The notes beneath the pieces were generated by a model. It worked only from the letters and a program-made list of their open reading frames with translations. It was not told the origin of the DNA and searched no databases. A program made the position numbers and the translations under genes. Shown one piece after another: positions 3,329 to 25,409 of a stretch of DNA of 64,000 nt (its first letter is position 1; each line of letters opens with the position of its first letter). The stretch comes from Strobilurus pachycystidiatus. Taxonomy: Eukaryota; Basidiomycota; Agaricomycetes; Agaricales; Physalacriaceae. The stretch spans positions 682,001 to 746,000 of the forward strand of contig JAHLMK010000020.1 in the NCBI GenBank assembly GCA_019915135.1. The letters are read 5' to 3'.

Positions 3329-4938
3329 GTGTTATCAACCCTTTGTGAGCGTACCCATCCCAAAGAACTTCGAATGTCAGCAGTCACCCAGAACCGACAG
3401 ACACCCTCGATCACACTGGAACTTAAATTCATTGGCAAAATCACTGGCAGAAGAATCGTCGCACAAGCTCTAATTGATAGTGGCGCTGAAGGTATTATTA
3501 TCAACGCCCGCTATGCAAACCAGCATCATTTCACCCTCATGCCCCTTTCCTCCCCTTTCCCTGTTCGCAACGTTGACGGCACCGAAAACGTTATGGGCTG
3601 GGTCCGGCACTATACTACCCAGCGCATCCGGATCTATAGCCGAGACGGTCATTCCTATCACGAAGAGCTAATCGAGCTCTACGTCACTGACATTGGTGAT
3701 CACGACGTTATCCTTGGCACTGACTGGCTCGACGAACACAACCCAGAAATAGACTGGGCTGGTGTCCAGATAGATTTCACTCGCTGTCCCAACTCTTGTA
3801 CCCTCAACAACCCCCCGGTGACTGACGTACGTGCTCACGCCAAACGCATTCCCATCCCCACTAAACGCTCTCCTCACGACCCTCGTCTTCACCATCGAGA
3901 CTACCAAGTTCAATGGAAGGATCGCAAAGGCAACCTCCGGCCTGTCCCAGTCCAGCGTACAGCCGGACAACGTCGAAGTATCCGACCCCGCGTTTACAAT
4001 CGGGTTCAAATTCCCGTCGTCTTGTTCACCGAGGACGATGAAGAAGAAGTGGAGGTCCCAAGAGAATGGGAAGAGCAGATGTACACTCAAGTGTTTCGGG
4101 ATGACTATCCCCGCCCAGTGCGAGATCCACAAACTCCTGATGGTCCCTCTATTCAAATACGTGCTGGATTTAGCAAGGCGCAGGAACTTGCCGAAGCTAG
4201 CCAAATGCCCAAGGATACCCGTCCTCTCGCTGAGCGTATCCCTTCTCAATATCATGCCTATCTCACTGTCTTTGACAAGCACACATCGGACCGGCTTCCC
4301 CAACACAGCCCCTGGGATCATGCTATTGATCTCAAACCCGGTTTCGAGCCAAAACCATGCAAAACCTACCCATTGTCCCCAACCGAACAAGCTGAACTTG
4401 ACGCATTTCTTGACGAAAACCTGGCAAAAGGATACATACGTCCTTCCAAGTCCCCCATGGCGAGTCCCTTCTTCTTCGTTAAAAAGAAAGACGGAAAACT
4501 ACGCCCCGTCCAGGATTATCGCGAACTTAACAAAGGCACCATCAAGAACGAGTACCCACTCCCGCTCATTGGAGAATTGATCGATAAACTCAAGGGTGCT
4601 CGTTACTTTTCAAAGGTAGACCTTCGTCAAGGCTACAACAACTGCCAAATCAAGGCAGGAGACGAGTGGAAAGGCGCATTCAAGACAAACCGCGGCCTGT
4701 TTGAACCCTTGGTGATGTTCTTTGGTCTTATGAATTCTCCTGCCACGTTTCAAGCAATGATGAATACCATTCTCAAGGACCTGATCGACTCCGGCAAAGT
4801 TGTCGTATACATGGACGACATCTTGATCTTCACCAAGACCTTAGAAGAACACCGCAAGGTCGTCTTGCAGGTTCTCCAGCGCCTGAAGGAGCACGATCTC
4901 TATGCTAAGCCCGAGAAGTGCACCTTTGAAGCTGAGTC
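3329..4938 (+). pseudogene. Protease and reverse transcriptase part of pol
   Basis: Retroviral-type aspartic protease: the catalytic triplet lies in LIDSGAEG near 3470-3490, with ILGTDWL as the partner motif. Reverse transcriptase follows (SPFFFVKKKDGKLRPVQDYR, then YMDDILIF near 4810). Reading stops being pol-like at 4938, where a hAT-like element begins. RNase H and the integrase N-terminus are absent from the element. The first in-frame ATG is at 3374; codons before it are also open. Confidence 0.88.
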
Positions 4939-5787
4939 TAGGGTTTTAAAGTCCAGTCCATGTGGACCGGTAAGACCGGTGGACTGGACCGGACTGGACT
5001 GGTCACATGACCAGTCCAATATGGACCGGTCTTACCAGTCCTACCAGTCCCGGTCCTAGGTCCAGAGCTCAACCCAGATTTATTAGGACTGGTAAAGACT
5101 GGTCTAGGACCGGTTTGGACCGGTCTATTCAGGGTTCAGTTAGGACTAGTCAAATATTCCTCAAAAGGGTCGTTATATATAAGTTCATGGTAAACTTACC
5201 TTGACTTAATTGATCCAATGGTAAACTTACCCTCATTGAGGCGTTCTTATGGTAAACTTTCCATGACTTATATACACATATGATACATTTAGCTGCACAT
5301 ACTCACTGCGTTTCTTGCTTTCTGAAAGACTTCGGATAGGTGGGTACTAGGTGACCATACAGGCAGAGTAATCATACGGTGGAACAGCTTCAGCTATCCA
5401 AGGTCTGACCATATAACGCGTAAGAGTACATGAAAATTACAACTGAAGGTAACATGCTGACGATACACAAACTATCATTACTGGACAGTTACAACAATCA
5501 TACCCTGTCTCGTGAGTCGTGAACTGCATAGGATGTTATAGTCAATCTGTCATTTTGTTATGAGTAGCTCATAGCCTCACTTAACACGGACAATAAAAGA
5601 ATATAAATAATGAAACTTGTATTCTTTGATGAGATGGATGGAGTACAGACAAAACGGTACCATACAATAGCTAATAGTAATTATATAACACATATTTTGA
5701 ATAATATAGCACCACCGCTAAGATACTAAGCCATGATTGTTGTGCTGTCTTATACGCGCTAGTCATCATCCACCTCTGGGTAAACCA

Positions 5788-6010
5788 ATGGTCCTCGTCC
5801 TTGTCCTTGTTAGGATTGGTCCTTGCCCGTGTTCAATTGGTGCTTGTCCACGTTCCGTTGGTCCTCGTCAGTGCCCAGTTGGTCCTCGTCCGCGTCTGCG
5901 TTCAGTTGGTCCTCGTCTGCGCCCAGTTGGTCCTCGTCTGCGCCCAGTTGGTCCTCGTCCGCGCCCAGTTGGTCCTCGTTCAAGCTCAGTTGATCCTTGT
6001 CCTCGTAGTT
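5788..6010 (+). repeat. Minisatellite of about 24 bp period
   Basis: GTTGGTCCTCGTC-type units repeat about nine times with drift, interspersed with GCGCCCAG. Open frames across it, giving Val-Leu or Gly-Pro-Arg repeats, are a by-product of the repeat. Confidence 0.75.
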
Positions 6011-6342
6011 GGTTGAGCGGTCTATGCACTAGAGACAAAATAAGGAAAAGGGAGAAGACGGGAGAGAAGGAAGTGAATAAACCCCGAGTTTGATCGAATT
6101 AAAAACCAACCAGCACGTGAGACGCACATGTGCCAACGGCATGCGGACTCCGCGGACTCTGAGAAAAGTGTGATATTGGGAATATTAATGGCACTCCGTG
6201 TCGCTCAGATGGTAGCCGGCACCTGCCGCTGCACATCCCAACTCAGCTGCAGTGCTTCCATTGCTGTATTTTGCCTGCTTATAAATCTAACACTTCTGTA
6301 CACCCCTAGCAGTCTCAATGAGCGAGCACCAAGTGAAGTGTG

Positions 6343-6403
6343 GGTTAGGGTTCAAGTGTAAGGGTTCACCGCGGGGGAGAACACCTAAATCGGAACCCTA
6401 ACC
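6343..6403. repeat. Short inverted repeat with telomere-like core
   Basis: GGTTAGGGTTC (6343-6353) and GAACCCTAACC (6393-6403) are perfect inverted copies 39 bp apart and could form a hairpin. The core matches the TTAGGG unit used by many fungal telomeres, but there are only single units. Confidence 0.5.
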
Positions 6404-7037
6404 TTACAAATTTTGCTCTGCTGCGCTTGAATGACTTATGCTAGACATGTCTGTTGTTACACTGATAGCTAGGATACGCAGGTGACAAGGTCATACAGCT
6501 AGCAGTTGTCAAGGTGTGCTATACATATACCTGTCTGAAGATTGATCATTAATGATTTGCGCACTGACAGCTTGATCTATATTGGCTGTGTTAGATGCAC
6601 CCATCACTGATTATACAGTAGGACTATCTAGACATAATGTCTTTGTTACTTGCGTCTACATCAAGTATCCAACATCTGACAAGTTGGAGAAAACGCAGTG
6701 ACTCTCTCACATTCAGATAAGTGTGGCCAAAACATATTATACAAGCCTAACTAGTCATTAACTTGACTGTCATATACTATCTGATCCATATGGTAAACTT
6801 ATATGATGGTAAACTTACCAAAAAAATTACAAAAATGTAAGTTTGAGCTTGTAATGATATGGACCGGTCCTAGACCGGTTTAGGACCGCAAACCGGACTG
6901 ATTAGGACCGGTTTTTGTGGTCCTAACCAGTCCAGTCCTAGGTCCAGCCAGATTTAAGAATTTGGTGGACCGGTCCGGTCCCCAGTCCATGACCTCAGAG
7001 GTCAAAAGACCGGACCGGACCGGACTTTTGAACCCTA

Positions 7038-8306
7038 CGGTTGACCAACACAATGGATACTATCCATTGTGTTGTTGACCGCTTCACCAAGACGGTAATT
7101 GTATCTCCATGCCGCAAGACCATTGATGCGGATGGTACGGTTGATATCTTGGTGGATGGTGTTTATCGACGCTACGGTCTCTGGGACAAGATGATCTCTG
7201 ATCGTGGTCCTCAGTTTGCAAGCAAGGTCATGCAAGCCGTTCACGCTAAGCTAGGAATTACCTCTGCGCTTAGTACGGCTTACCATCCTCAAACAGATGG
7301 CGAAACCGAGCGTTATAATCAAGAACTTGAACAATACCTCCGCGTTTTCTGTAACTACCGACAAGACGACTGGGTCAAATACCTTCCCTTTGCGGAATTC
7401 TCTCACAACAGTCGCATTCACTCCACCACGGGCAAGTCCCCCTTTGAACTTCTTCACGGTTTCAAACCCCGCTTATACCCCTCTTTGAACCCCACGTCCA
7501 ACATTCCCACTGTCGAAGAACGGTTGACCAACCTGGAACGGCTTCGCGAGGAAGTCAAGGCTAGCCTTACCACCGCCGCAGAGATCATGAAGGGGAACAA
7601 CGGAGATGTCACCAAGAAGGGCATTACGTTCAAAGTTGGTGACAAGGTGTTGCTTGACGGAAAGAATCTCAAGACAACGCGACCCAAAGCTAAGCTCTCA
7701 GACAAGCATCATGGGCCTTTTGAAGTCACTGACGTACTTGGACCAGTCAACTATCGTCTCAAACTTCCTCCCACATGGCGTATACACCCTGTCTTCCACG
7801 CCGCCCTCCTCCTTCCTTTTGTGGAGACCGAGGCTCATGGGCCTAATTTCCCATCTAATCCGCCCGACCTCATCGACGACAAGGAAGAGTTTGATGTTGA
7901 AGCCATACTCGACTCTCGCCCAACTCGTAACAAGCGCGGCATTCAGTACTTGGTGAAGTGGTTGGACTACCCGTCATCAGAGAACACCTGGGAACCCAGT
8001 TCCAACCTCACAAAGGCACTCCCTTTGATCAAGGAATTCCATCGTACACATTCCACGGCTTATTCCAAACCTCTTCCCCACCTTCGCACTCTCGGTGTCA
8101 CCGTTAACGATATCTGGACGGGGACTACTGCGCTCCAGGCGCAAGCGCATCCTAAAGAGGGGGTATTGTCACAAATTGCCTCCATTCTTCTCCCTCCATC
8201 ACGTGCTTCCCACTCTCGACACCGTCATATTCTCCCGTCTCTGCATCCACCTCGGCCTGGGCCTAGCTCACCTCTCTCTTTCATCCATCGTCTTGGCATT
8301 GCCTAG
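7038..8306 (+). pseudogene. Integrase C-terminal part plus chromodomain
   Basis: Integrase resumes after the hAT-like element just before the first catalytic Asp region (VVDRFTKTVIV). It then shows SDRGPQF with the second Asp, YHPQTDGETER, and the catalytic Glu region (KSPFELL). A GPF-type region (HHGPFEV) and a chromodomain near 7880-8030 (VEAILDSRPTRNKRGIQYLV, then YPSSENTWEP) follow. Chromodomains of this kind direct integration to modified chromatin. The frame starts without a usable ATG because the zinc-binding N-terminus was deleted. Confidence 0.88.
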
Positions 8307-8705
8307 ACAGATCACAGGTTCCATCATGGGATGGGTGTCCAAATGCGGACCGTAGATTCCGGCCCGCTGAAGACTGCAAGTCAATGATGTCATTGCCATA
8401 CGAGGCGAGGGCAGCCTTTCTCTGGACATCCATGACATCATTTACCCGGGTCCCTCTGCCAAATCTTCGCAAGTACTTTGGTTATGCTACCTTAGTCCGT
8501 ACTCTGGATTCTCTGTATATATTCATGGACTCTCTAGTTAGTTCCGCAGTCTGTTCTCTTCGTCTACTCACTGCTCGGTCGCTCCTAGTACTGGTGTAGC
8601 TTGACACACTCCTCCTTCATATCTATCTCTATCTCTATTCCTTTCTCCTTGTCTCGTTCGTGTGACTTGGGTGGTTGCCTTAGTATTCGGGCACCAGTCT
8701 TGACA
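8167..8705 (+). repeat. 3' LTR of the first Gypsy element
   Basis: It is 539 bp, starts TGTCACAAATTG, ends CTTGACA, and is preceded by a polypurine tract at about 8151-8163. It is followed by CCCGC, the target duplication. Confidence 0.92.
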
Positions 8706-9881: not shown

Positions 9882-10263
9882 TTGACTTTTGCCTCACCAA
9901 AAGACTGCCCAGTGGCTTCCTGAACATACCAGAGCACCCGATGTCACCAATACTTGCCAAATCAGAGCTGATCGGCACTTTCTCAGTTGACACCTAGATG
10001 CTCCATGTACACAGCCACCCAGCACAGGCTTATTCCCATTCTTGCACAGTACCCTCCTGCCGCATATAGCAGCGAGCGGCACCACATTCGGCAGCTATAT
10101 TGGCATCCTAAAACGGACGGCCGTCTCTGCACCGTCCCAGAATGGATTGTCCTCGACCTAAAGTGGATTGTCCTCGACCTAAAGTGGAATGTTTTTGTCT
10201 TACTGGGATGCTACCTAAATACATGCTTCTAGACTAATACTGGTAGAGCTATCGAAGTGGTCA
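9882..10263. other. Spacer; 3' side of KDZ element B
   Basis: No gene is seen here. A 20-21 bp unit, TGGATTGTCCTCGACCTAAAG, occurs twice in tandem at about 10144-10185. The left end of KDZ element B should lie here if the model for B is right, but I could not identify it. Confidence 0.4.
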
Positions 10264-12025
10264 CTATATATCACGATGGTCGCCACTTGTATTGGCGACC
10301 GCTTCCTCCATCACGGCGTCCTCGGTCAGCTCCTCCACGGCCTCGCTAAGCGTACTGACGACGACTTTCTCCACCGCCACAACTCCAGTGTCATCTACCT
10401 CTTCCTCCTCGCCGTCACCTCCAGGCCCTCCGCCCGTCAATTCCGTATCCTGCCAGGGCAGATCTTGATAATCCCCATCCTCGTCTGTGACGTCCCACAT
10501 GGCTGCAAAGGAATTCCGCAGGTCCCGGTGGATATGCGCCTGACGTGTTGCGTACGATATTGATCCCTCCCGAATGGCAGGATCCGCTGAGGCGCGCCAC
10601 GTCTTCCCAGTCTCCCACCACAACTCTGTGTACCGCAACGTCACGCGTACGCGCCGCATCTCCTCAACCACCAAGGCCAACTCTTCCGTCCAACGTCCCA
10701 CCCTAGCTCTACTCTTAAGCCACTCGACCTTCGCCATCTCCAACATATGTACATCCGACCCATCTCCCATTGCACCAGTTGCGGTCCAGATCCACGGCAA
10801 AACATACGTCCCTTGACCCAACGGAAGCAGCGTCTCGGTGTCATACTCTGCGCCTTGGAGGGACTGACAGTCTGCTTGTGTCAGCTCCCTGAACTCGGCT
10901 TGCCAGGAGATATCGGAGCCCTTCAATCTTGCTAGGGCCGCCCAACAGAATCCGTACCGTTCCCTGGCCTCCTTTGTGAGCTTTTTGTGTTGTTCGACGA
11001 ATGAAGCGGCCCGCGTGAGTGCATGCTGTCCCCTCGCATTCTTCCTTCGATGCGCATGCGAGCAACCGATCATGGTTTGACTCGAGCGTATGGTCGCCAA
11101 CGAATCCCGCATCTGGCTCACTCGGTGCTCCACTTCCACGACATCCAGACCCTCTGAGAACGCCTTCGCATAATCAGAATGCTCGAAGTCCGATGGCAAC
11201 CACAAGACCTCGTCCTCGACATCGGCCGACCCAGAGAGAGACACCATTGCCTCCCGACATCGTATCCCAGCACCAGGCATGTACGCGAACTGCATCGAAC
11301 GAAGGTGTTTAATTCGCCGTCTGAGGGTAACGCGTCGGCGATGTAAGTCGCTGGCCTGATGTGATGTCAACAATCCATCGAGCGCTCCCTTGCGATCCCG
11401 ACGAATGGACAGTCTAGAGCTTGTGTTATTATTGACAGTGATGTATGACGACTGCACTCACTGTATTTCCTCGACATCAAATGCGTAGGCTAGAAATTGG
11501 GCCACGGTGGATGTTACTAGCTTCAATTCACCTGCCTCACGGCGTCGACGGTCGTGTTCCGCTAAACGCAGACGGAGCATTTGCTCGGACTCGTCTAGAA
11601 CGAACACGTCAGCGACTCTCGATACGAGCGTTCAAGCACGGCAAACTCACGCTTGACGACTTTTCCATACGGACTCGGTCGTGCGAAACGATTGCTCTCC
11701 CAAGTTGTAACTTCTTCCGTCCACCTCTTCACCGTGTCGTCGCCAGGTATGATCGAGGTGAGCTGGTCGTGTATTCCGGCTTGGCGCGTCGCTTCGAAGC
11801 GAGCCTGCTTTCGCTTCTTGAGGAGCGTCAAACCTTGAAGCAGATGTCAGTCGTTGCCCGATGCACCAAGTAAACCAGGCTCACCGAAAGAGATATATTT
11901 ACACCAATTCATATAATGGAAATGGGTGTCCAGGGTGTCGTGACGATGCCCGGGACCCATCTCTTTCGTACTTGCCGCGCAGCCGTTAAGGAACGCCCAC
12001 ATCCGCTCGATACCTTCTCCGTCTG
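10264..12025 (-). pseudogene. KDZ transposase of element B, C-terminal part
   Basis: This part opens at the broken catalytic motif PDGEGIERMW (about 12000-12025). It continues with AASTKEMGPGHRHDTLD, the KKRKQARFEATRQAG region (11595-11831), and the C-terminal helical region (10264-11457) with LPWIWTATGA and MAKVEWLKSRARVGRW. All are typical of KDZ transposases. Short introns separate the blocks. The N-terminal part of the same gene lies at 25812-27854 on the same strand. Element A sits between them with CCGTCTG duplicated at 12019-12025 and 25812-25818. Confidence 0.85.
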
Positions 12026-12110
12026 GAGTCCTAGCTGTAGATCGGAGCCTCATTTCCCTAGCAATTGCCCGGGGTATCTGAGGCTCGGAATCCATCAATT
12101 GCCGTAGTCT
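12026..12110 (+). repeat. Left terminal inverted repeat and subterminal motifs of A
   Basis: The terminal 42 bp match the right end in inverse orientation at roughly three quarters of positions. CTAGCAATTG (12058-12067) and CATCAATTGC with CTAGCAAC follow. Repeats of this kind are probable transposase-binding sites, which is inference. Confidence 0.75.
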
Positions 12111-13007
12111 AGCAACTATGTGTCACGTCGCGCCAGCCTTAGCGGAGCACGTGCTGTACACTGCCACAGTGCTCCGCCGCCCCGCCGCCCTCTGTACACT
12201 ACCCGAATGGGGCTCGGCACCCTGACCCTTCCCTGGCTCATTCCCTGGCTCGTTCATGCATCCGAATCGGGCTCCTTCCAGCGCCCATCAAAACCATCAA
12301 CCCAGTGTGATGCCAGATGCCGCTAGATCCCCTCGCTGCCGTGCATTAGATAAGCGGGCTCGCTGCACAATCGGAAATTAATGCGCCACAATATTCCGGG
12401 CTGCCCTTCCTATATATTTGGCTTTTTTGCGGCTGTTCCCAATGCTAGATTATATAATGTGTTACTGATGATACAAGTAGTACCTCCCGCACTGACGATG
12501 ATGCCCAGTAGGGTCACCGACCACCCGTTCCCCAAAATGCGCCACAAAAGAAATTTCTATTTTTTTCCAATATTTGCTGTGCTGTACCTAGTGTTACCCC
12601 AGCGTTACTACGGCCGCTCACGATGCTTCTGTTGCTGTACGAGCGCCTCCGACCGGGTGCACCCTGAGCTTTCGGCGGGTCGTGGTTATTTCTGCACACA
12701 GCCACCCACTAACATGAAAATTCATAAGTTCGAATTCCAGCCCGATGACTGTGACTCATCCAGCTCCACGTCATATCGGCAGCTCGGCAACGTGACGCCT
12801 AGACTCGCACACGTCCAACATGCTGACGTCATCATGTCAAGACTTTGTAGCCACCAAGTCCGTATCAGCGCCACAATTCCAAGCATCGCTCTCTCTTTCA
12901 CCAACTTAAGATACGCCGCGGTTGCACCCAATACGTTTCGGATGCAATTAAGCACGCGGATCCATACATTTTACGACATCGGACACGGTACAGTAACCCT
13001 GCCATCT
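12111..13007. other. Left subterminal non-coding region of element A
   Basis: About 900 bp lie between the left end and the stop of the HMG-like gene. Long open frames here (for example 12381-13118, plus) show no domain signal and partly overlap the real gene in antisense, so I call no gene. Confidence 0.5.
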
Positions 13008-15299
13008 TTAGGGCGACAAACCCTCGAGAATCCACGTCACATCATCAACCGTTTCCTCCCATTGGTCCCAATCCTTCTGCGTTCCTCCCTCCATGGTCGC
13101 TTGCGCCCACCAGAATAGGCTTGCCATGACGCTCAACCACCCGTTGACGCCATAAACCTCTACCAGCTCCCAGCCGAAAGTCCTCCATTTACCCACTTTG
13201 GGCCTGTGCCACAACCCTCCTCTCTTCTCGCGCCACTCTGGCTGCATTCCACTGTACCAGACGCCGAACGCCCGCTTGAAGCCTGGTAAGTCCTTTGGGT
13301 CCAACTTGAGCATGTTTGACGTCCTACTCATCCTTCCTCCTTTCACCCAGGCGTCCACTGTCTCTGGACGGCCATTCGACGGCAATTGGCCCTCCCTCAT
13401 CCAGCCGCTCTCGCCCTCCCTCAGTGTATACACGTCAAGCAGCTTTCTCCACCTGGGACCGAACTCATCCACGCGGCCATTGAAGTGCGAAACGACGGAG
13501 GTGTACCAGGCGGGTGCGTCTTCCACGGCGAGCTCGACCTCCGTCGCTCTGGCTGCCATGTAGTCGTCGTAAAAGTCGCCCAAGCGCGGCTTAGTGCGTG
13601 CAGCGGGCTCAGACGCGGCATCCTCGATAGGTCCAGCGTCAACCCGCTTCGGGATTTCTGCCAGACGACTCGAGCGGCGAATTTCACCGGCAGCGGGATC
13701 CTCATTCATGGTAATGTCGCCACCACTTGAGGGGCCAATCTCGCCGGGAGCGGGATCCTCGTTCATAGAAAGGTCGGCAGGTCCATTGCTCGGATTCAGG
13801 CCGTCAGCCTCGCCAGCGTCGTTACAAGCCGTCGCTGGGGAAACTGCCGGAGCGCCCTTGTTCAACTGGGTCGGATTTGGGCGGCTCGCCCGTTTCTTCG
13901 CTGGCTGGTCGCCCTCGTCGCCGTCATCGACGCGAGAGCGTTTATCACCGCTGGCAGCGCCTTCGTGCTCAGCACCGTCATCCCCTCTCCCTCCCTCTGC
14001 ATCGTCATCATCGTCATCATCCGCATTGTCCTTCTCTCCCGCCTTCGCGAGCCCCCTGATCGTGCTCAGGTTGTAGGAAACGTCTTCAGGCGGCGCACAG
14101 CTACTGCCCGTTGTGTTTTCGGGGAGCTTCGCGGCGGCCAGCTCATCGGAAGTGTAGCAGCTGCGACCGAACTCCTCGAGATACGTCTTGTACGCCTTGT
14201 GTGCTTGCGGCTTGAACTTGGTAGCGGACTTCGGATCGTCTTCGAGGTTATCACCCCCGCAAATCCTGCAAGCAATGTAAGTTCAGGATTCACCACCAAG
14301 TGCCAACAGCAATACTGACGTGGCAACAGATACTTCGCCATTGTAATGCGGCATTGGACCCACAGCATGAATGACTAGCTGCAAGCCTGTTGCCGCGCCA
14401 ACCATTTCCGCCAGCGGTTGAAACAGAGTCGGAAGGTCCATGATGCACCTGCGAAAATATGTCAACCACGTCCTGCGCTCGGCCAACTGTTCGACTTACT
14501 TTGCGCGGATATCGGGATCCTGCGACGGCGGTCCGTTAATCGCCTCATCCCAACTCTCCTTTGCAGTCTCCGCATCGGCCTTGGCTTTGGCGGCGTACTC
14601 GGCCTTGTCCTCGGCGGTGAGCTGGCTGAACATTTCCCTCACCACCTTCTGGCGGAAGCCTCCGTCCAGTTGTTGGTTCGAACCGCCCTTCTTGAGTTCG
14701 TCGTGTCGCCTCTTGACCTCGGCATTGACGAGCTCCCGATTCTCGACCTGGTATTGCTGCGCTGGCTGGCGGCGCTTCGCTGGCCTGCCCACGCCACTAA
14801 TGCGAGCGAAGATGGCCGTCATTGGATCGTCGACCCGCCCCTTCCGTAGCTTCGTGCCGACGTTCTTCGAAATAGTCTCCACCCGGCGTTTTAACCAACG
14901 GTGAATTGCCTACACTGTCCATAAGCATACATTTGTACGGAAATACTAACATTATCTTACACTCTTGTGCCGCTCGACGATGGCGCGTTTCTCCACCATC
15001 TTTTCGTTGCTCAAGCGCTCGACTTCGACCGGCACCTCGGGTCTCCACTCGTTGACAGGGAATGGGGGTTCCTCGTAGTCCTGCAGCCACCAAGGAATCT
15101 TGATGAAGTATTGGCGGTAAAGCTCCTCGAGACACTTCCGTTCTGCGTCCGCCCCGCGCTGCATCGCGTCAGCGTAGCGAGGCAGCCAGCTGGTCAGGTA
15201 GACACCTCGGTACCCATCGGCCCAGCCGCGACGTGTGGCCCGCTCTTCTTTCGCGAGTGGTATGTAGACCTTTTTCCTGTTCGCAGGTCGGGAAGGCAT
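13008..15299 (-). CDS. Cargo protein with HMG-box-like segment and Trp-rich C-terminal domain (A copy)
   Basis: The model is complement(13008..14265, 14320..14448, 14500..14909, 14961..15299), 711 aa, with a true ATG at 15299. Each junction keeps the frame with GT..AG. Residues about 175-240 resemble an HMG box (FRQKVVREMFSQLTAEDKAE with a following Ala-rich helix). An acidic, KR-rich linker (KRSRVDDGDEGDQPAKKRAS) looks like a nuclear signal. The C-terminal domain carries WYSGMQPEWR, YGVNGWLSVMASLFWW and DDVTWIL. The gene at 44226-47254 shares this layout, including an exon of exactly 129 bp in the same place. It is divergently paired with the RNase H1-N gene at 15566 (266 bp apart). The family is unnamed to me; a DNA-binding role is inference. 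Confidence 0.8.
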
Positions 15300-15565
15300 A
15301 GTGACAGCTGGTGGGGCAAGTACTGGGCAAAGCGCACGAAGATGTCACGTTGCTAGCATTTCTTTGCGCGTCATCCGGCAATTGCTTGCAAATTGCACTT
15401 CATGTCGGGCCTCACAATCGCGACCGACAAATTCCTCAATTTGTCCTCACATCGGGAGATGTAAACTTTGTACTTTCTGGTTTTGGAAGGTACCCCTCTT
15501 TGGTGCGTTCCTTCCCCTGGCGCCGCGTCATAAGTATCCCAAGAGCTCAGTGTCACACCAGGTCG

Positions 15566-16160
15566 ATGTCTCATTCTGGTGCCACTCTATCCCAAGCGAT
15601 AACAGTTGTTTCCTCCGACGAGGAAGACAGTGCTAGCTCCCGCCCATCCTCCGACAGCGAAATCGAAGTCCAGATTGGTAAGTTACATGCTACCCATTCC
15701 TCATATCATTGCTTATCAAGTCTCCAGAACTTAACAGTTCCTCTCGTCGCCCTCGTCGCCGCCGTACAACGCCCACCCTAACTGCCGCAATGTCGCACAA
15801 TACCGCGCCTGCAGCCGCGCCTGTACCGGCTCCGGTTCTCAACCCGGTCCCCCCCGTCCATCGTGCCGGCGTCGCTTACAATGTCGTTCCCGCCTCCGCG
15901 CTCGAGGCGGACCCGAAGATCTTTGCTTCTCGTTGGCAGGTGGTAGTTCGCGGTCGTCAAGTTGGCGTGTTCCCTCAGGCTCAAAGGTAGACTCCTCTTA
16001 CTCTTACATCCTTTCCTTGCTGATCTCCATTGACAGTCAAGTTGCCGACCGCGCCGTACTTGGCGTCCCGCATGCCCTTCGAGAAAGTGTCAGTACGCAG
16101 GAATTTGCTCTGGATCTGTTCAACGGCGCATTGGCCCGCGGCCATGTGATTGTTCTGTAA
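15566..16160 (+). CDS. RNase H1 N-terminal (viroplasmin-like) domain protein 1 of A
   Basis: The model is join(15566..15677, 15728..15986, 16037..16160), 164 aa. Residues 1-40 are Ser/Glu/Asp-rich and are followed by an Ala/Pro-rich linker. The last 60 residues form the domain: WQVVVRGRQVGVFPQAQ, then DRAVLGVPHALRESVST and a closing helix. This fold in RNase H1 binds RNA-DNA hybrids and double-stranded RNA; the same fold occurs in caulimoviral viroplasmin. No catalytic RNase H domain is present. It is divergent from the HMG-like gene, suggesting a shared promoter at 15300-15565. Confidence 0.82.
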
Positions 16161-16223
16161 TGCTTATCATATTAGTCGCCCAATATACGAAGCTTTTATC
16201 CACACCATCATCTGCAGGCGATA

Positions 16224-17197
16224 ATGCCTTCTGTCAGCTATTCTTCTGACTCCTCTGATGACGACTATCTCACGGCTTCTGAGGGAGGCATCTCCGACGC
16301 TTCCTCCCAATATGATGATCCGGAAATTGAGGCGCTCATTGTCGCTTTTCATGAGGCGGATATCAACGGTGATTTCTGAATACAGGACTGACACGTATTT
16401 TCTCACTGAGCCTCATATGGTAGCGGCCCCCGCTAGCCCTCCGCGGCGCCCGATTCCACCTTTAGAGCGAGAGCTCCACCCGACCCAGGCAAATGCCACG
16501 GAATATAGCGTTACCACTCGAAATGGGGTAACTCGCACCACTCCCAATTGGTCAGTATTCCTAGGTATTCCTTGATTACTGCTGATGGAAACTCAATTTG
16601 ATTAGGTCTACCGCTGCGAGTCTATCACTCGATCAGGGAGCGCATGTTCACGCCACTCGCAGGCGTGATAAGGGTCGAAACAAAGGTATCTCTCGCGAGC
16701 AGCCTTGCGTCGTATTCGCGGGAGTCAATACTGGGCTCTTCGACACCTGGGACGAAACGAAACCCCAGGTACATAGGGTGAAGAAGAGTATCTGCGTGCG
16801 GTATGACAACCGCCACCAAGCAGAACAGGCTTACGCGTATGCACTTCACAAGGGCTGGGTGCGATCGAGCGCGGGTGGGGTGTATAGAACAATTCGCATT
16901 TCCTCCCGGCAGGACTTCGGGGTTTCAGATTATTCCAATCCCTTGTCCGGGCCGGCCCCCAGTTGGTGGTATTGTGTCTATCGTGGCTTGACACCGGGCG
17001 TATACGCATCGCTGTAACTTGGAACTATGTTCATGTGATTTTCTCGCTAATCTCTGTCTTTTCGTAGGCTCGAAGCAGCGCTCAATGTTATGGGCGTTTC
17101 AGGATGCTCCCATGACTCATGGGAAGATCTGGATACGGCCTTGACGAAATTTGAAGAGGCGCAGAGGGTTGGTGATGTGAGAGTCATCGGTATCTAA
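16224..17197 (+). CDS. RNase H1 N-terminal domain protein 2 of A, two domains
   Basis: The model is join(16224..16368, 16424..16550, 16606..17013, 17068..17197), 269 aa, starting 63 bp after the previous gene. Residues 1-50 are acidic. The first domain is near residues 125-180 (CVVFAGVNTGLFDTWDE, then YDNRHQAEQAYAYALHKGW). The second is at the C-terminus (WWYCVYRGLTPGVYASL, then GVSGCSHDSWEDLDTALTKF). The 55-nt first intron (16369-16423) removes a stop that would end the protein after 51 residues. Tandem placement suggests duplication from gene 1 followed by internal domain duplication. Confidence 0.78.
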
Positions 17198-17704
17198 TAA
17201 TGTGGTTCTCGCAGGGCTGTGATAGCATACTTTTTGTTCTGGACACGCATGCAATAATTATCACCTGTCCCCTTCATCCACAAGCCCATACAAAAAACTT
17301 GTCTAAAAATTTAGCCGAGTCATTTGTTCAATCTCCAGACCATACGCAACGATGGATGCAAGCAAATTCGACGGTTCGTGTCAATGCTACGGACTCCCGC
17401 CAATACAGAGGTGGTACGCGTCTGCGCCTGCCCCACCACGACGACACATGGCACACTCACTAATTTTCTTTCCATCAGTAGCGTCCGACTACACGTTCCT
17501 AACCCCGAAACACCCACATGATCAGGATTTATCTATCTTAACAGCTATCTGATTTGAGGAGCTCGACCTGAGCTTGACGTCGCAGGTCCTCTTTCGTCTG
17601 CATTGGGTCCCGGGCCTCGCTGTCTTGACTCTTTTGGGGGAGTCATCGATCTCGCGCAATAGGTTGATAGCAAGTGTGGCGCAAAAGGCGCAGTCTTTAT
17701 GCTC
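17198..17704. other. Spacer between convergent cargo genes
   Basis: I see no supported gene here; overlapping short frames lack domain signals. It lies between the 3' ends of two convergent genes. Confidence 0.4.
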
Positions 17705-18367
17705 CTACAAGAATGCAAATACCTTTTCGTCTACGTACTCCTCCAAAGTCCCATCAATGATACACTGGTTGACTCCATCCAACCAATCCTCCAGCTGCTT
17801 GAATTTCTTGTCAACATCGTTTGCCGCGATGTATTGGGAGGAGAACCGTCCGAGATGTCTGGATATCCCCTCCAGCGCGTCCAAAACCGGTCGTCGTATG
17901 GAAACGACGCGTCGTAAGGCTTCTTCAATTGCCTCGGCTGCATCTGGCGAACCATCCCCTCGATCCTCCAATGCGGACATGGTTAGACCGCGCATATATA
18001 GCCTCGGGGTGGTCTCTATGAATAGATCCAATCGCCGTTTTTGCTCACGGACCTGCGCGAGTAGAAGTTCGGTCGCGTCAACCCCATGATTCACTCTATG
18101 GAGCGTGTCAGTGGGTGCAACCGTCCGTAATACGCCAGTCGGCTCACCCGTCACTGTTGACTTTGGATGAGGGAGACTTGCCCTGACGTCTCGCGGCGTT
18201 TCTTTCATTTTGTCGCCCCAAGATGCCGACCCGGTTCCTGTATAGTGTCAGATACAATTCGAGTGTCGAAAGTTGTAATGAACAGACCGATAATACGAAT
18301 CCATACGCTGCACCCTTCTCGCCGCTTTTCTCTCCTCAGGACTGTCATATTTTTTGTGTCGTCCCAT
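17705..18367 (-). CDS. Small basic (bZIP-like N-terminus) cargo protein of A
   Basis: The model is complement(17705..18095, 18148..18237, 18288..18367), 186 aa, ATG at 18367. The first about 45 residues are strongly basic with repeated R/A spacing (SPEERKAARRVQRMDSYYRN, then QNERNAARRQ), like a bZIP basic region. The remainder is helical and heptad-rich (LLLAQVREQKRRLDLFIE, LEGISRHLGRFSSQYI). The gene at 30900-37460 has the same plan. Binding DNA as a dimer is possible but not shown by the sequence. Confidence 0.68.
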
Positions 18368-18859
18368 GTTCCGAAGACGTGTCTTCAGAGTTAGGAAGGT
18401 TTGTACACGCAAGGTCGGTGTAGTCGGCGGGAGAGAGAAAGAGAAGTGGATCCCTAACCGTAAACATGAATCGGATCGACTATGGCTTTGGACACTTATT
18501 GGACATTTATTGGACACTTATAACATGTAGCGTCCATCCTCTGCGCCCTCAAAAAACTAGTACTTTCTTTGCGGGTGGTATGGGTGTACATTGCCCCGTT
18601 CTCCCGCTGCACACTGCCGACCAATGGGCGGACTTGCTCAAAAGGGCAATGCGAACACCGACTTGCCCGATTCAGCCTGCAACTGGTCAGTGTCACTGGT
18701 ACATGATACTCGCACGTCCATTACGCACACCTATAATTCGCATATCAAGAAGGGAACTTCAGAAACTTCATTGGATTATGGAACAACAGATGGTATTGCT
18801 GGACTACTCTGGCCAACCAAGCAACCTCAACAATCGGTACCAAGAAACCTCGTCAAGCT

Positions 18860-19177
18860 TTAGCCCCATGCCTCTCGCAAGTGCAAGACGGAATTCCTGT
18901 CCCCCAACAATTTCCTCAAATTGACTACATCCTCCCATGTCAATACTCCCGACGACTCCAGGCATTCAATGAACGAAAACCCGCCCCCTTCTTTGAGGTA
19001 GTCCCCCAGGTGCTCGTCCATCTGGAAATGCAAAGGAACGTATCCCTCGGCGTTCTCGGCGTAGCGGTCACGCACGGCGAGTCGAAGAGAGCGTGGTCGC
19101 AGGAGCCCGCACCCGGTCATGATGTAGATTGGGCGTCGTTCGCGCAAGGCTCGCTCAACGATACTAGGGTTTGGCAT
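18860..19177 (-). CDS. Small unrecognised protein, 105 aa
   Basis: A single-exon frame with ATG at 19177. The C-terminal part (FIECLESSGVLTWEDVVNLR) faintly resembles a SAM-like helix bundle and a segment of the gene at 20166 (RFLQRLELVHLSPRFLRMGV, then TEEDIITLA). It may be a decayed or divergent relative of that gene. No promoter or intron supports it further, so expression is uncertain. Confidence 0.4.
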   Translation of the reverse strand: MPNPSIVERALRERRPIYIMTGCGLLRPRSLRLAVRDRYAENAEGYVPLHFQMDEHLGDYLKEGGGFSFIECLESSGVLTWEDVVNLRKLLGDRNSVLHLREAWG

Positions 19178-19460
19178 GTCAGTATCGCGGGCTGTGCAGA
19201 TGTAAAAGTGTCACATTTGATCTTCAACGCTGGCCTCTCGAGGGGCGGAGTGCTTTGGGCTGGTTGGTGCGACCATGGCTGTCAGGATTGGAGAAAGACT
19301 TCAGTCGAGCAAGATCGCGGTCATCCTGCTCGACGATAAGTGGTTGGCGGGACTTGAATAGGAAATTCAAATATCATTCGTAGATCATGGTGCATACGCC
19401 AAGGGCGTAAGTAAGGACTGGTAATCATAATACACACGAGACGCTGCACGATGCGAGACT

Positions 19461-20118
19461 TTAGGCACTGCTTCCGGCAGTAGGCTCTAAATACAGAGTC
19501 GACCACACTCTCTCCACCCCTTCGCCATCCGTCTCGTTACGCTGGATAGCGATCTTGCGATATATTCCAGCGGCGTCGCGATATCTTCCACACAGGGGAC
19601 AGACATTGCGGTACTCCTGACAGACGGTCTCGTATGTGACCGTTGCTTTGGCAAACCAAGAGGCCCAATAACGCCTCAAGACTACAACGAAATTAGCGAC
19701 GCTGTAACGATGTTATAAATATTGATTTTACCGGCTTGTCTCCTCGCCCATCGGGTCTGTACATGGCGCGGGATGGAGAGATTTTGAATTGCGGCTCTTG
19801 TAATGCGCTTGTGTCGTTCGAGAGACACCTGATAGGCCAGGAATCCTGAGGAGTGGGACCAAGTCAGCGTGCGCCTTGGCGAAGGTGGCTAAAAGACTCA
19901 TACATACTCTGATGAGCATCGCAGTGCGTTGGGGCAGCTACCGTTGCGGCTGCCATTGCGAGAAATGCGAGTAACGTCCACGAAAGATAAAGACTGGGCA
20001 ATGGCAAAGGAATGAGGCGAAAGGAACGGTACGATCGATCGCACTCTCTGCGCCCCGACAAATTGCAATTGAGGCGTTACCTTATGGCCGCCTGTCGACC
20101 TTGATAAGGGAGCGCCAT
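19461..20118 (-). CDS. Small membrane or secreted protein ending in a KDZ-like DGEGVERVW motif
   Basis: The model is complement(19461..19681, 19732..19845, 19908..19993, 20081..20118), 152 aa, ATG at 20118. All three junctions are in frame. Residues about 13-33 (SLYLSWTLLAFLAMAAATVA) are a hydrophobic helix followed by APTHC, fitting a signal anchor or signal peptide. A CPLCG pair occurs mid-protein. The C-terminus reads NETDGEGVERVWSTLY, nearly the catalytic-motif segment of the KDZ transposase 4 kb away. Its start codon is only 47 bp from the divergent gene at 20166. Function unknown. Confidence 0.55.
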
Positions 20119-20165
20119 CAAAAGCCCTTTCGTTCTACCCTTCTTCGCACCTTTTCACATCGCCA

Positions 20166-21136
20166 ATGTCGTTGAGTGGACGCAGCTCCCCTAGTATTGG
20201 GGAATTCATTCGCTCGCGCCGCCGACTCAGCCCCCACCACGACGACGACGACGACGAGGATATGGAGGACTATGAGGTTGATGACGATCGTCCGGTTCAC
20301 AAAAAATTGCGCATGGACAAAGGACCCAATCTCCCGCCTCCCATCCTGCCTGATGCCGATCTCTCAGTTCGGATGTCCGTCGTGGTGAATCGCGCGGGCA
20401 TCGACAACCTCACCCTCGCGCAAGCACTCAAATACCCCGACGAAGAGATCAAAGGTCGCGCTCACGCCAAGCTTAGCCGGCTGACGGCCGAGAGTCTGTA
20501 CACCACCCTTGGCTGTATCCGGTATGAATCCTGACCGTCGGCTGAGGCCTCATTCTAACATGATTCAACAGACGTGTCCAACGTAGGTTGCGAGCGGCGC
20601 GCCCCCTGCGTACCAATTACGTGCTGGGAGAAGGTGCAGACGATGAGGGTACGTCCAGAAGGCGTTTATTCGAGAGTCAGGCTGATCACCGTCTAGAGTC
20701 GGAAGAAAATCCGAACCCTCGCATGGCCAGGTCCGCCACGGGTGACTATCCGATTCCAGAGGATTGTGTCGTTCCGGTGGACCAGAAGTTTCTTCATCAG
20801 GCCGTCGTCCGCTTCCTGCAACGCCTGGAGCTGGTCCACCTGTCGCCACGCTTCCTTCGGATGGGCGTGTACACCGAAGAAGATATCATCACGCTTGCGC
20901 TCGAGGTGCACAAGCCGAAGCAAATCGATCAGTTGGCGTGTGCCGTTGATTGCACCTGGGCAGAATGGATCAAGTTGAAAGGCGCATTGTTTAGCTACGC
21001 GCGTCCTTGGCGCATCTCCTACTTCAACCCGGACACGCCAGACGGAAGGGACGAAGGGCTGCCTGACCTTCTGAACGAGGAAGAGGAAACGGTGCTGGAT
21101 TACGAGGGCGATTATATACTGACCCGTAACTTCTAG
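20166..21136 (+). CDS. Unrecognised cargo protein with acidic N-terminus
   Basis: The model is join(20166..20521, 20572..21136), 306 aa. A further 48-nt GT..AG segment near 20650-20697 could be spliced without changing frame. Residues 20-45 are Asp/Glu-rich (HHDDDDDEDMEDYEVDDD), followed by KKLRMDK. The C-terminal half (FLRMGVYTEEDIITLALEV, CTWAEWIKLKGALFSY) looks helical and perhaps SAM-like. It lies directly upstream of the KDZ transposase on the same strand, 261 bp away. I do not recognise a family. Confidence 0.65.
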
Positions 21137-21396
21137 TACAATATCACTGTTCTGTTAAATCATCAGTTTGAGTTTGTCGTCTCATGAAAAGGAAAATTCA
21201 CATAGAAATTGTTACCGCTGCGACTAGCACATGAACGGTACTTGCGTTGAAGAGAGACCGGGTCAACATGTATCGCTCAAGACTTTAAGATGCAAGTGTA
21301 ATCTTCCGGTTGAAGCGGCCCGCATCAGCCGCTGGATTACAAACCCCCACGCGTACTGAGTAGGTGGCTGTGCATCCCCATCGCTGAGCTTCGGCC

Positions 21397-24300
21397 ATGA
21401 CTACTAGGGACACAAGACGCCGGGCCAGCGCTTACGAACGCGAACAACGGGAACAATGGGAAGACCAGAATTATCTTCTCAATGGCTACACCCTGCCCGT
21501 CCGTCGCAGGACTTCAATGCCTTGGCGAGTGCCCGTCACCCGTGCTCGACTATACGTTTTCGAAGGACGGGAAGCGCGTCCATGGAGAGCGGGGTTTGCG
21601 CTCTCCTCAGAAGCGTGTGCGGCGGGCGGGACAGGGCCAGAGCGGCGGCGTGCACGGCCCGATCGCGTCAGGCAGCGGTAGCGGGAGTGGAGGCGGCCAC
21701 TGGCAGCCGTTGCAAGACTCGCTCGATGATACCGTCCCACCCGACTCTCACCCCAATGACTGGGAGGATTACGACCCTCCTACTTCGCCAGCATCAAACT
21801 TCACGCCCAGTTCACCCCCACAACCTCTTGGCGGGCAGGATCTCCCACCAACTTCCGGACTTCCTCGTACATCCACCCGAACTGGCCCAGAAGGCGATAA
21901 GGGCCCGGCCAAGCGTTATAAAACGTCAGTACGTGCCGCCATTACATGCGGACGCGCACTCTCTGATATATCTTAAACAGGACGACACTATGTCGGTTTG
22001 GTTGCCCTTGCAGGACGAATTCATGGCGGAAACTTTCGTCGGCGAGATCCTTGAGGACGACGCTGCGTGTGCAACATGCGCCAAGAAGTGGTTACCCGAA
22101 CTCGCCATAGCGCAACTTTCCCCGGAGGCTCGCGCCGAGGCAGTTCCCGCCCTCTATCGCTGCCATACATGTGGGCGTTTCTTGGAGTGTGAAGACTGTT
22201 GCCGGCGGAGGCATGCGCGCTCACCGTTGCACGTTCTTCGCGTAAGCTAGTACCTAGTCATCCCCAGCTATGATTGACTTTTCACTTATAGGTCTGGCAT
22301 TCCGATTCGTTCGAGCCCGCCTGGCTCATCGATTTGGGCCTGCGGTACCAACTCGGTCATGGCGGTGGTATCTGCGCGGTCCCAAAGCCTGTTCGCATCG
22401 CCACAGTACTGCACGATAACGGTGTGCATCGAGTCTCTATCACGTCATGCGGCTGTGATCGCCACGCCGACAACATGGACGGATGGAGGGAACCGTTGGG
22501 CAACGGTTGGTATCCCGCGACCACCATTCAACCGCAGACGTATGCCACCTTCGAGTGCTTGAACCTTTCCGCCGCTTGAACGTCACAGCCCAGGTCAATG
22601 CTCGAGACTTTGTGACGACTTTGGAGTGTCTGACGGACCCACTTGGGCAGCATTACGTCCCGGACAGGTACAAGGCGTTCCAAACGATGTCCCGTCAATG
22701 GTCGTTCCTCAAACGCATGCGGAGACTCGGGTTGGGTCATCGGGAGAGGATCAGCAGCGCTCCTTTGGGTGCCGCGGCCGTGAGATGTTGGGCTTGTCCG
22801 CGGGCGAAGGTGAACCTTCCTGAGGGATGGGAAAAAGTCGCAGAGAATTTGAAGTGAGCTTCCAGATTGGTTCCAACGCTCGTCAGAGGGCTAACGAGTC
22901 ACGACACTTGACCAGATTTAAATTTCAACTCTTTTTGGGGCTCGATGCTAATTTTCGGATGGAGAGCAAGCTGCGAAAAAAGAGCAAAAATAAAGCGTAT
23001 CCGATTTTGGGCGATGGTCTGGGTTCCATGGTTCCAACGGACGAGTATTTGGACCATCTCAAGAAGTATGTCAAAGAGGAAGACGTGAGTTGGTCCAATA
23101 TTTGTGTGGAGTCGTGCTAACATGTTTTATCCTAGGTTTCAACTTGTATCGCCTTCGCGGCGCTGATGCAGAAAGAGACGCGCCGTGCCTCGGGTTTGCG
23201 GTGCACAGGCATCGGCGGCTGTATATGTACTCGACATGAGCTGATTCGTCCCCTCGGGTTGGGAGATTTGCTGAAGGGTGAAAGGTATGTTGCGCAGGTT
23301 GTAAAACACAAGCTTGACTAACATACGAACATTCTCAGATACGCCAACATGGACTTCATCTTTTGGGGAGCGATTTTAGGAGAGCAGGTCGACACAATCC
23401 TCGTATCATACGACATAGGATGCCAATGGAAAGTCCACCTCCTCGAGCGGCGCGAGGCGATGCCTTCGATGCTGCAGGCGGACCCTGGGGTTGATGGACC
23501 CAAGGTGAGGGTCGCATTGCCGGTGTGGCACGGTGCTGTTCACGAGGAGGATTGCACCATGTGCAACTCACTGAGGTGGAAGATGGGTGCGGCGATGACG
23601 GACGGTGAGGGTGTAGAGCGAGTTTGGGCCAAGCTGAACGGATTGGCGACTTCAACGAAGGAGATGCACGCCGACGGCCGCCACGAGGCAATCGAGGATG
23701 CAGTCGACGATCATAATTTCCAGAAGAACATCGGCCTCTGTGAGTCGTGCGCGCACTACCGGTATAATGATGGGTTCTGATGCGCAAAATGCTAGGTTCT
23801 CTCATCTCTCGTCGCTTGGAGGTCGCCATTGAGGAGCGAGCGATCCAGATGAGGAATTTTTCGGAGGTTTCTGATTCGCTTGACGAGGAGCTAATGACTG
23901 AATGGGAGAACGAGATCAAGAGGTGGCATGCCGCGGAGGATCACCCCAGGAAGAACGGCGACCCAAACGTCAAAAACCCATACGTTTTGGGCGTTAAGCA
24001 GGGTGCGTAGTGCGTTTGGAGCTTTTAGTCGTCTGAACTAACAGTCACTGGCCAACAGATATTGTCAAGATTGCTGACGTGCGCAAGCAGCTCGAGCTCG
24101 AGGAGAAGGCAGCCCATGACATCTTGGTCACGGAATCCGCTCAACGAAGCCAGCGGAAGGGAAGTCAAGCCATGTTCCTAACCCTCGGTCTACGATTGGA
24201 GGATATGCAGTCAGTGATTTGCGTGCTCCACGTGTACATGAACTGACCATTTGCTAGGGGTCGGATCAAGGACCTCCTGCGTTCTCGAAACAAGCCCGCT

Positions 24301-25409
24301 GGGAAGGATGGGGACGACAAGCTACAGGAACGGCGCGAGAGTTTCTTCAAGATCATGCGACGGTTCCGTTCCCTCCAGGATACGTATATGCCCGGAGTCG
24401 CCGGTCTCGTGGACAACGACGAGGAGGTGGCTTCGAGGGGCTCTGTTCCGACACCTGCTGAGTCGGTTAAACTGTGGATGCCTTCCGAATTGCCCTCAGC
24501 ATTACGCCACATGGGCCGCAAGGGTATTTTTGAGGCGGAGGAAAAGCTTCGTCGCGCGCAATGCTCTTCTTCACTCAATGCGCTTCGTCTGCGCCTCCAC
24601 ACTAAACGTCACCTGATCATGTTCCGGAACGCTTACCTACGTGGCCAACGACGCTCTGGACGCGCACGAACCGTCATCAATGGTGTCAGTGATAGCGTGG
24701 ACGCTATAGCTCGCGTATACCGTCGGGGGTGGGCCGCTTTGGTAGGTTTGGTAGGCGAGATAGGGTGTGGGGAGTATAGATTGTTGAACAAGGAGGACGT
24801 AACATTGCGGTACGTCCAAGATCACGATGCAAAGGCCAGCCGCCGCCTGGCAAAGTTAGCTGGCCGACAGACTCAGAACATGATGGCGGGGGCGGACTTG
24901 TTTCAGGACAGCGAGGAGGAGGATGCTACGGACGAGGCTGTCATTGCGGCCAGACAGACAGCCGACAACGCAGAAGGGAACGAGATGAACGGCGCCAGTC
25001 GTCGAACCCTGTCCTGGATCTGGACGGCTCAGGGAGCGCCTGATGAGTCAGACGAGTATCTTCGAGAATGTGCGGTTTTTTTTGCATGGATTTGGTGCAG
25101 GGCTGATTTTCTTTGGTAGCCGTGCGTGTCGAGTGGTGGAAGGCGTATGCTCGGAAGGAGCGGTGGCGAGAGGAGGTTTTGCTGGGGGAGGCCGAGAAGG
25201 AGTTCACTTTGGCTTCTTTGAGATTTGAGGCAGCGGAATGGCGGCGTCGAGGGGAGGTGTCATTTGGAGGTTACTTGCAGCAGAGGGGCCGCGAGGCGTA
25301 TGCGCGACGGCAGGCCCGGGTTTACGACAACCTTTGTGCATCTTTTGCACGCCGCTGGGCGCAGGGTGGGTCGATTGGCAAGCGTGTACGGCGGAAAGAC
25401 AATGAATAG
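21397..25409 (+). CDS. KDZ-type transposase of element A (one apparent frameshift)
   Basis: A multi-exon gene. A CxC2-like cysteine cluster (CATCAKKW, CHTCGRFLECEDCCRRRH) is followed by LGLRYQLGHGGGICAVP and VSITSCGCDRHAD. The catalytic core has FLGLDANFR (about 22935), VSYDIGCQW (about 23410) and TDGEGVERVWAKLN (about 23600), as in KDZ families. The C-terminal block has RTLSWIWTAQGAPDESDEYL and VRVEWWKAYARKERW, ending at 25409. Introns lie near 21925, 22245, 22855, 23085, 23290, 23740, 24010, 24210 and 25070. At about 22560 the frame changes by one base inside a conserved stretch (YATFECL then EPFRRLNVT), so the copy may be inactive or the base may be an error. The first intron and N-terminus are uncertain. 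Confidence 0.85.

Follow-up and report, generated by a model that had tools for sequence, protein, structure and literature searches.

The window analyzed here, meaning the whole stretch of 64,000 nucleotides, comes from the genome of the mushroom Strobilurus pachycystidiatus (51.8 Mb in 61 contigs) and covers positions 682001-746000 of contig JAHLMK010000020.1 (C20:682001-746000); coordinates given without a contig name refer to the window. It holds two KDZ transposons, elements A and B. In each of them, a large gene predicted to encode an HMG-like protein and a small gene predicted to encode a protein with an RNase H1-N domain, that is, a domain related to the N-terminal domain of RNase H1, are arranged head to head. 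These divergent pairs are almost certainly mobile accessory genes of large KDZ transposons, carried within the mobile unit.

The gene models are predictions spliced by hand at coordinates taken from a sequence-only reading of this DNA that had described a two-gene cassette in each element. Gene A1 of element A (13008-15299, minus strand; exons 13008-14265, 14320-14448, 14500-14909 and 14961-15299) encodes a predicted HMG-like protein of 711 aa with central and C-terminal conserved domains, identified from the splice model and homology to B1. A2 (15566-16160, plus strand; exons 15566-15677, 15728-15986 and 16037-16160) encodes a small protein of 164 aa with a C-terminal RNase H1-N-like domain, identified from the splice model and a profile from which A2 itself was left out. 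The counterparts in element B are B1 (44226-47254, plus strand; exons 44226-44356, 44410-44752, 44805-45211, 45263-45391, 45455-45564 and 45624-47254), a splice model of an HMG-like protein of 916 aa, and B2 (43121-43906, minus strand; exons 43121-43247, 43307-43766 and 43819-43906), a small protein of 224 aa with one RNase H1-N domain recognized by Pfam Cauli_VI. The A1, A2, B1 and B2 models contain no internal stops and have GT..AG introns of 50-63 bp. They bear out what had been claimed of the layout: both pairs are divergent and follow the same plan, with intergenic gaps of 266 bp (A) and 319 bp (B) and a shared 129-bp exon (14320-14448 in A1, 45263-45391 in B1). Homology between A1 and B1 shows in the C-terminal domain, which aligns with 64 bits and 30% identity over 148 columns, and again in a second match, 24% identical over 181 columns, that spans the HMG-like region and the central one. 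As a description of element A, the two-gene cassette was incomplete, a third gene, A3, having been overlooked (16224-17197, plus strand; exons 16224-16368, 16424-16550, 16606-17013 and 17068-17197); its predicted product of 269 aa contains two tandem RNase H1-N-like domains, recognized from the splice model and Cauli_VI. An A3-like match was sought in element B, and none was found. The second exon of B2 contains an 18-bp repeat, and the same exon is 18 bp longer in a copy of element B on contig C26.

Element A is inserted in the KDZ gene of B. A partial copy of B at C26:57001-77000, whose aligned element-B pieces are 98-99% identical to the window, lacks element A: it continues across the window's break (12025 to 25812), where the two sides overlap by 7 bp and a further 86 bp match at 100% identity. 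Because this copy is continuous where the window is broken, 12026-25811 (13,786 bp, plus strand, both ends present) is element A. At the junctions identified by this comparison, A is flanked by identical 7-bp target-site duplications, CCGTCTG, at 12019-12025 on the left and 25812-25818 on the right. The near part of the KDZ transposase of B (25811-27111, minus strand) consists of a KDZ core match at 25811-26074 and a CxC2 match at 26809-27111. The core match halts at 25811, at position 180 of the 217 positions of the model (97-180 covered), and the adjoining sequence resumes at 12025 and continues below it; thus, A sits inside the KDZ gene of B. The transposase of A (plus strand) is matched by CxC2 (PF18803) at 22325-22588 and by the KDZ core (PF18758) at 22923-23291 and 23337-23717; in-frame stops in the CxC2 match and the first KDZ stretch may represent introns or decay, these being matches rather than a gene model.

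The first ~45-92 bp and the last ~121 bp of A recur jointly, at 85-96% identity, in seven short elements of 346-645 bp (L041-L047), six of which are flanked by perfect 7-bp duplications and the seventh by one with 6 of 7 bases; one flank is common to two of these copies, so that six independent sites are represented. These short elements look like non-autonomous derivatives of A and, having its termini, confirm its ends. The termini of A are GAG..GTG, not CA..TG. Element B (9935-48299, minus strand) was delimited by comparison with C13 and C9, which have paralogous sites without the element; there, the flanks of the window (to 9934 and from 48301) are adjacent and share CCAGAG. Six base pairs of the B duplication are certain; if a 7-bp duplication with one mismatch is assumed (ACCAGAG at 9928-9934 on the left and CCCAGAG at 48300-48306 on the right, the last 6 of 7 bases matching), the limits 9935-48299 and the CA..TG termini follow. 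An end of B at 47624, where homology to the C26 copy stops, was rejected, the empty sites showing that B reaches 48299.

Nested in B are, besides element A, a second Gypsy element with a chromo-domain integrase (31254-37238), which is missing in the C26 copy with a 5-bp overlap at the junction; an insertion of the long terminal repeat (LTR) type (37918-42326) with identical 300-nt direct repeats (at 37918 and 41477); and an insert of ~0.3 kb (47746-48072). Subtraction of the nested insertions leaves 13,851 bp for B, a size like that of A. Arms related to the LTR-type insertion lie inverted within 54470-55669. The B stretch 29647-30895 is unmatched in the C26 copy (L039/L040), which has a different ~1.5 kb, representing a variable segment in near-identical elements. 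The presence of a TET/JBP gene in A or B was considered and rejected, given that there is no Tet_JBP match on C20; the 15 genome matches obtained in the exon-wise search are all below cut-off.

To place the two pairs in a genome-wide context, the 200-aa C-terminal part of B1 was searched against the genome (E up to 0.01), yielding 100 matches, B1 itself and A1 included. The KDZ core PF18758 has 174 genome matches, of which the best 150 were merged into 120 places, so that the linkage counts are lower bounds. For at least 72 of the 100 C-terminal matches, a listed KDZ place is no more than 15 kb away; 58 of these matches are upstream of it and 14 downstream. The upstream matches fall into two classes among the places listed: 33 are on the strand opposite to KDZ, 32 of these at a distance of 9.1-13.9 kb, and 25 are on the same strand, 23 of these at 6.4-8.3 kb. 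B1 was scored as a miss, at 20.6 kb from its KDZ match, because the nested insertions push it away. Conversely, at least 66 of the 120 listed KDZ places have a C-terminal match within 15 kb upstream, and when CxC2 (145 genome matches) is added as a marker, at least 78 of the 100 matches are within 15 kb. The spacing between KDZ and the HMG-like gene is constant in some multi-copy groups (7263 bp in three copies, 7538 bp in three, 7670 bp in two), and two opposite-strand places have spacings of 11209 and 11210 bp. Association with KDZ transposases is therefore found elsewhere in this genome. Neither outcome that the sequence-only reading had named as refuting, a lack of profile hits for the domains or a lack of such association, occurred, apart from the HMG match remaining below Pfam cut-offs.

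Such linkage could be spurious if repeat-rich regions brought KDZ, HMG-like and RNase H1-N genes together by chance, and the elements do cluster: when the 89 matches whose contigs have a known length were shifted by 30-100 kb, a mean of 19.2 still fell near KDZ. The observed number on these contigs, at least 65 of the 89 within 15 kb of a listed KDZ, far exceeds the maximum of 32 in 1000 such shifts, as it does the outcome of random placement (mean 9.8, maximum 19 in 1000 runs). With KDZ and CxC2 markers combined, 74 of 92 were observed versus a shifted mean of 23.4 and a maximum of 35 (300 runs). The preferred strand and distance classes, and the exact element ends that enclose the genes of A and B, also speak against chance clustering, which we consider to have a negligible probability; it is rejected for A and B by the boundaries and genome-wide by the placement and shift controls. 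The divergent-pair observation is real and far beyond chance.

The search for RNase H1-N genes gave 22 merged places, including A3 itself (the query of one search) and the presumed host RNase H1. Of the 22 places, 12 have a large-protein match on the opposite strand no more than 6 kb upstream, 11 have a listed KDZ on their own strand no more than 15 kb downstream, and 9 have both. Viewed from the HMG-KDZ pairs, an RNase H1-N gene was detected between the two in 10 of the 33 opposite-strand pairs, and within the pair or 4 kb beyond it in none of the 25 same-strand pairs. These counts are lower bounds because the search misses genes split into exons in the manner of A2 and B2. The co-inheritance of the two genes that had been proposed accordingly holds only in part: the large gene family occurs near KDZ (at least 72 of 100 matches) far more often than an RNase H1-N gene was detected alongside it. 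The only further opposite-strand element examined, on C6, has an A1-like gene (minus strand), A2-like and A3-like genes (plus strand) and KDZ downstream at C6:2084254, at 23-35% identity per stretch. In the one same-strand element examined, on C1, the HMG-like gene is present, and no RNase H1-N match was better than E = 5.9. The A3-like genes L001 (C38) and L003 (C17) have no KDZ among the 150 matches listed; downstream of each, the opposite strand contains another A2-like stretch (E 2.0 for L001 and 0.005 for L003).

Turning to the small proteins, B2 matches Pfam Cauli_VI (PF01693) with 28.1 bits (cut-off 21), and A3 matches it in two stretches with 51.6 bits together. The second A3 domain alone scores 26.0 bits against the same cut-off, and because it exists only after splicing, this score supports the A3 splice model. 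A2 has no Pfam match; it scores 25.9 bits with the profile built without it, the maximum among 1000 shuffles of A2 being 6.6. Cauli_VI and HMG_box were the profiles that the sequence-only reading had named for checking the cassette: at Pfam cut-offs, B2 and A3 match the former, whereas A2 lacks a match and HMG_box stays below threshold. The best PDB sequence relatives of the small-protein domain are the RNase H1 entries 1qhk and 3bsu. As read from the models, A2, B2 and the second A3 domain have in common a phase-2 intron immediately following the GVF/GVY strand; this intron inside the domain, the lack of a nuclease and the tandem arrangement in A3 set the small proteins apart from RNase H1. 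Indeed, the RNase_H nuclease domain (PF00075) has no match anywhere on C20, whereas the presumed host RNase H1 at C8:562168-563010, which can serve as a control for the genes of the elements, has an N-terminal-domain match (562930-563010) and an RNase_H match (562168-562386) on one strand, ~0.5 kb apart; the possibility that the small genes are host RNase H1 was therefore rejected. A protein of Mycena galericulata (P0002, 239 aa), the sole hit of the A3 profile among 1984 candidates, contains two Cauli_VI stretches and no nuclease match; thus, tandem nuclease-free proteins exist outside this genome.

The small proteins had been read as an RNA-DNA-hybrid-binding fold without nuclease. In human RNase H1, the substitutions W43A or KK59/60AA impair RNA:DNA binding (PMC10639055). 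These positions were located by alignment to 3bsu among 13 segments, namely two RNase H1 references, nine segments from this genome (those of A2 and B2, the two of A3 and, for five of the eight loci L001-L008, the first domain) and two from P0002. W43 is retained in 7 of the 11 non-reference domains (B2 and the first domains of A3, L003, L005, L006, L008 and P0002); A2, L004 and the two second domains lack it. The lysine pair K59/K60 is missing from all 11, with an arginine at the second lysine position in B2, the first A3 domain and the L006 domain. Given the absence of this pair from every aligned domain, binding of RNA-DNA hybrids is doubtful, even as the domain type and the lack of a nuclease stand. 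In other words, the assignment to the RNase H1-N family stands, and the ligand does not follow from the family.

The identity of this domain bears on the possibility that the pair is primarily a counter-defense module, in which the small proteins would bind double-stranded RNA (dsRNA) or RNA:DNA hybrids and block quelling or heterochromatin, the HMG-like protein only positioning them and having no role in strand transfer. The domain family is shared with caulimovirus viroplasmin, as the name Cauli_VI indicates; caulimovirus P6, which contains a domain of this family, is reported to suppress RNA silencing (PMC3469532, PMC3836500), a statement taken here for the protein as a whole; and TET/JBP, an epigenetic counter-measure of another kind, has been described in KDZ elements (Kojima 2025, PMC12730594). 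We consider such a module unlikely: the canonical hybrid-binding residues are partly lost, and the 25 same-strand pairs, in which the search found no RNase H1-N gene, nevertheless include multi-copy groups, so that the small gene seems dispensable.

The case for the HMG box in the large protein is weaker than that for the RNase H1-N domain. When PDB was searched with a profile of 10 family members, 39 entries were hit with E no higher than 10, and 30 of them are named as HMG-box proteins. The E of 9e-4 for the best hit, HMGB1, adds up two stretches that are weak individually (2 and 5.1); TOX was matched in a single stretch (E 0.0043). The Pfam HMG_box profile gives subthreshold matches in 8 of the 10 members (best E 0.0036). 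Thus, the HMG-like partner holds up as remote profile similarity to solved HMG boxes but not at Pfam cut-offs, and the large protein appears to be a divergent HMG-box-like protein. The C-terminal domain has no match in Pfam at E up to 0.1 (nine members scanned), none among PDB sequences at E up to 1, and none in NCBIfam (P0001 alone scanned). P0001, a metagenome protein and the 1 relative obtained among 7993 scored in a profile search, is 45% identical to the last exon of A1 over 403 columns; a protein-database search with B1 found no relative among 7991 candidates scored.

Constraint on the large gene was assessed in 17 pairs of C-terminal domains, using the ratio of non-synonymous to synonymous divergence (dN/dS). 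For the three pairs whose dS lies between 0.2 and 0.55, this ratio is 0.24-0.29, and ten of the 17 pairs have finite values below 1 (0.05-0.29); the value for L028/L025 is based on few changes, and L017/L018 shows no synonymous change. In the comparison of the whole of B1 with its C26 copy, which is free of stops, the proportions of synonymous (pS) and non-synonymous (pN) differences are 0.020 and 0.0095, respectively. Diverged copies of the C-terminal domain thus look constrained. These results bear on the alternative that the genes are passive cargo, host genes captured once and carried along without a role in transposition or silencing. Mushroom mobile elements with captured genes have been reported (Castanera 2014, PMC4289320), but the 100 genome matches, the two preferred spacing classes, the low dN/dS and the recurrence of the same architecture in a diverged element make passive cargo quite improbable.

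The best explanation as a whole, to which we give about even chances, is a transposon-borne module that would combine an HMG-like architectural cofactor with nucleic-acid-binding small proteins. The sequence shows the ends of the elements, their target-site duplications, the nesting, the linkage of the large gene to KDZ across the genome and the constraint on its C-terminal domain; the roles that follow are inferred. The HMG-like region of the large protein would bind and bend DNA, and the protein, as an element-encoded cofactor, would join the ends of the ~14-kb element or open its chromatin. HMGB1 is an HMG-box cofactor of the cut-and-paste transposases Sleeping Beauty and RAG, and by analogy, a DNA-bending protein of the HMG type would assist synapsis here; the protein described here differs in being encoded by the element and in having an extra conserved C-terminal domain. 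That the large protein is a DNA-architectural cofactor of transposition is plausible, at somewhat less than even chances. The small RNase H1-N-like proteins and the large one would be expressed jointly, their genes sharing a divergent promoter region. By binding structured nucleic acid, the small proteins would either protect the element's R-loops or transcripts against silencing or bring the complex to element DNA that is being transcribed; action against RNA-based silencing or on R-loops is, on present evidence, rather doubtful. The fuller proposal, that a large KDZ lineage encodes its own HMG-like architecture cofactor together with nuclease-free, sometimes tandem RNase H1-N readers of R-loops or dsRNA, expressed from a divergent promoter and serving synapsis and escape from silencing, is offered tentatively. 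The interpretation in the sequence-only reading, a candidate accessory module of KDZ elements, is partly supported.

Several observations weigh against this module. The RNase H1-N genes were detected in part of the elements only, and 22 of the 100 C-terminal matches have no listed KDZ or CxC2 marker within 15 kb. Some of the equal-spacing groups may be segmental duplications, and other copy groups differ in spacing by up to ~480 bp. Six of the ten finite dN/dS values rest on dS above 1, synonymous sites are saturated in 5 of the 17 pairs, and the nearest pair, L009/L010, has a dN/dS of 1.15 on very few changes. None of the 10 family members matches Pfam HMG_box above the cut-off, A1 alone matches it with E = 1.2 and B1 alone not at all, and two AlphaFold2 predictions have low confidence, with mean pLDDT (predicted local distance difference test) values of 46.9 and 38.3. 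To these must be added the loss of the lysine pair, as well as the basis of the functional reading, which we infer from hand-made models and sequence.

The elements A and B resemble Kyakuja, for which CA..TG termini and a 7-bp target duplication have been described (Kojima 2025, PMC12730594): both contain the KDZ core and CxC2 and have accessory genes beside the transposase, with a 7-bp duplication in A and a match of 6 of 7 bases in B; the termini of B are CA..TG if its duplication is read as 7 bp. They differ from the Kyakuja of that account in the GAG..GTG ends of A and in the nature of the accessory genes, here HMG-like and RNase H1-N-like, and from the TET-carrying Kyakuja in that the exon-wise search of this genome gave no above-cut-off Tet_JBP match. 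We therefore refer to the elements as CxC2-type, Kyakuja-like KDZ, a lineage name that is provisional. KDZ1-KDZ3 of Cryptococcus, likewise KDZ elements in a basidiomycete, are active and ~9-11 kb long, with 4-8 bp duplications and inverted repeats of 139-241 bp; their transposases contain CxC1, and HMG is not mentioned in the main text of that report (PMC12810828). The report on Pleurotus MSH4 describes CxC2 before intact KDZ transposons, with no mention of HMG in the text available (PMC7641404), and another describes CxC7 and F-box fusions, its available text naming neither an HMG nor an RNase H1-N domain (PMC12062965). Another likeness is seen in the insert in the Pleurotus element HELPO1.3, where capE, with a viroplasmin domain, and capF, a putative transposase, were interpreted as Helitron capture of viral genes (Castanera 2014, PMC4289320). 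In that case too, the mobile element of a mushroom contains a Cauli_VI gene close to a gene resembling a transposase, and inverted repeats flank them; that account, in its available part, names no HMG-like partner and no KDZ. In the open literature on KDZ, these domains and mushrooms, as far as its text was available, we found no description of the cassette; the founding 2014 KDZ paper was outside this scope.

A Gypsy-type retroelement at 868-8705 has ~540-bp direct LTRs (868-1406 and 8167-8705), gag, reverse transcriptase and a chromo-domain integrase, and contains an array of ~21-bp repeats at 5795-6000; its LTR recurs inverted at 59912-60451. A large inverted repeat at 52999-56653, with 627-nt arms at 93% identity, encloses tandem repeats spaced by 103 bp (53630-53965), and a minus-strand open reading frame at 59120-60028 has a DDE_1 endonuclease domain.

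Apart from the capture of TET/JBP, little is known of the ways in which KDZ elements transpose and evade silencing (PMC12730594). A module located near the transposase in scores of places, in a genome with so many KDZ-core matches, offers concrete proteins for experimental tests, and the mapped ends, together with the short derivatives, are ready substrates for a transposition assay. A domain family with 100 matches in a single genome and no Pfam model is placed in a functional context. More broadly, our findings suggest that proteins of mushrooms with the RNase H1 N-terminal domain may often be encoded by transposon genes, rather than being host RNase H or viral remnants.

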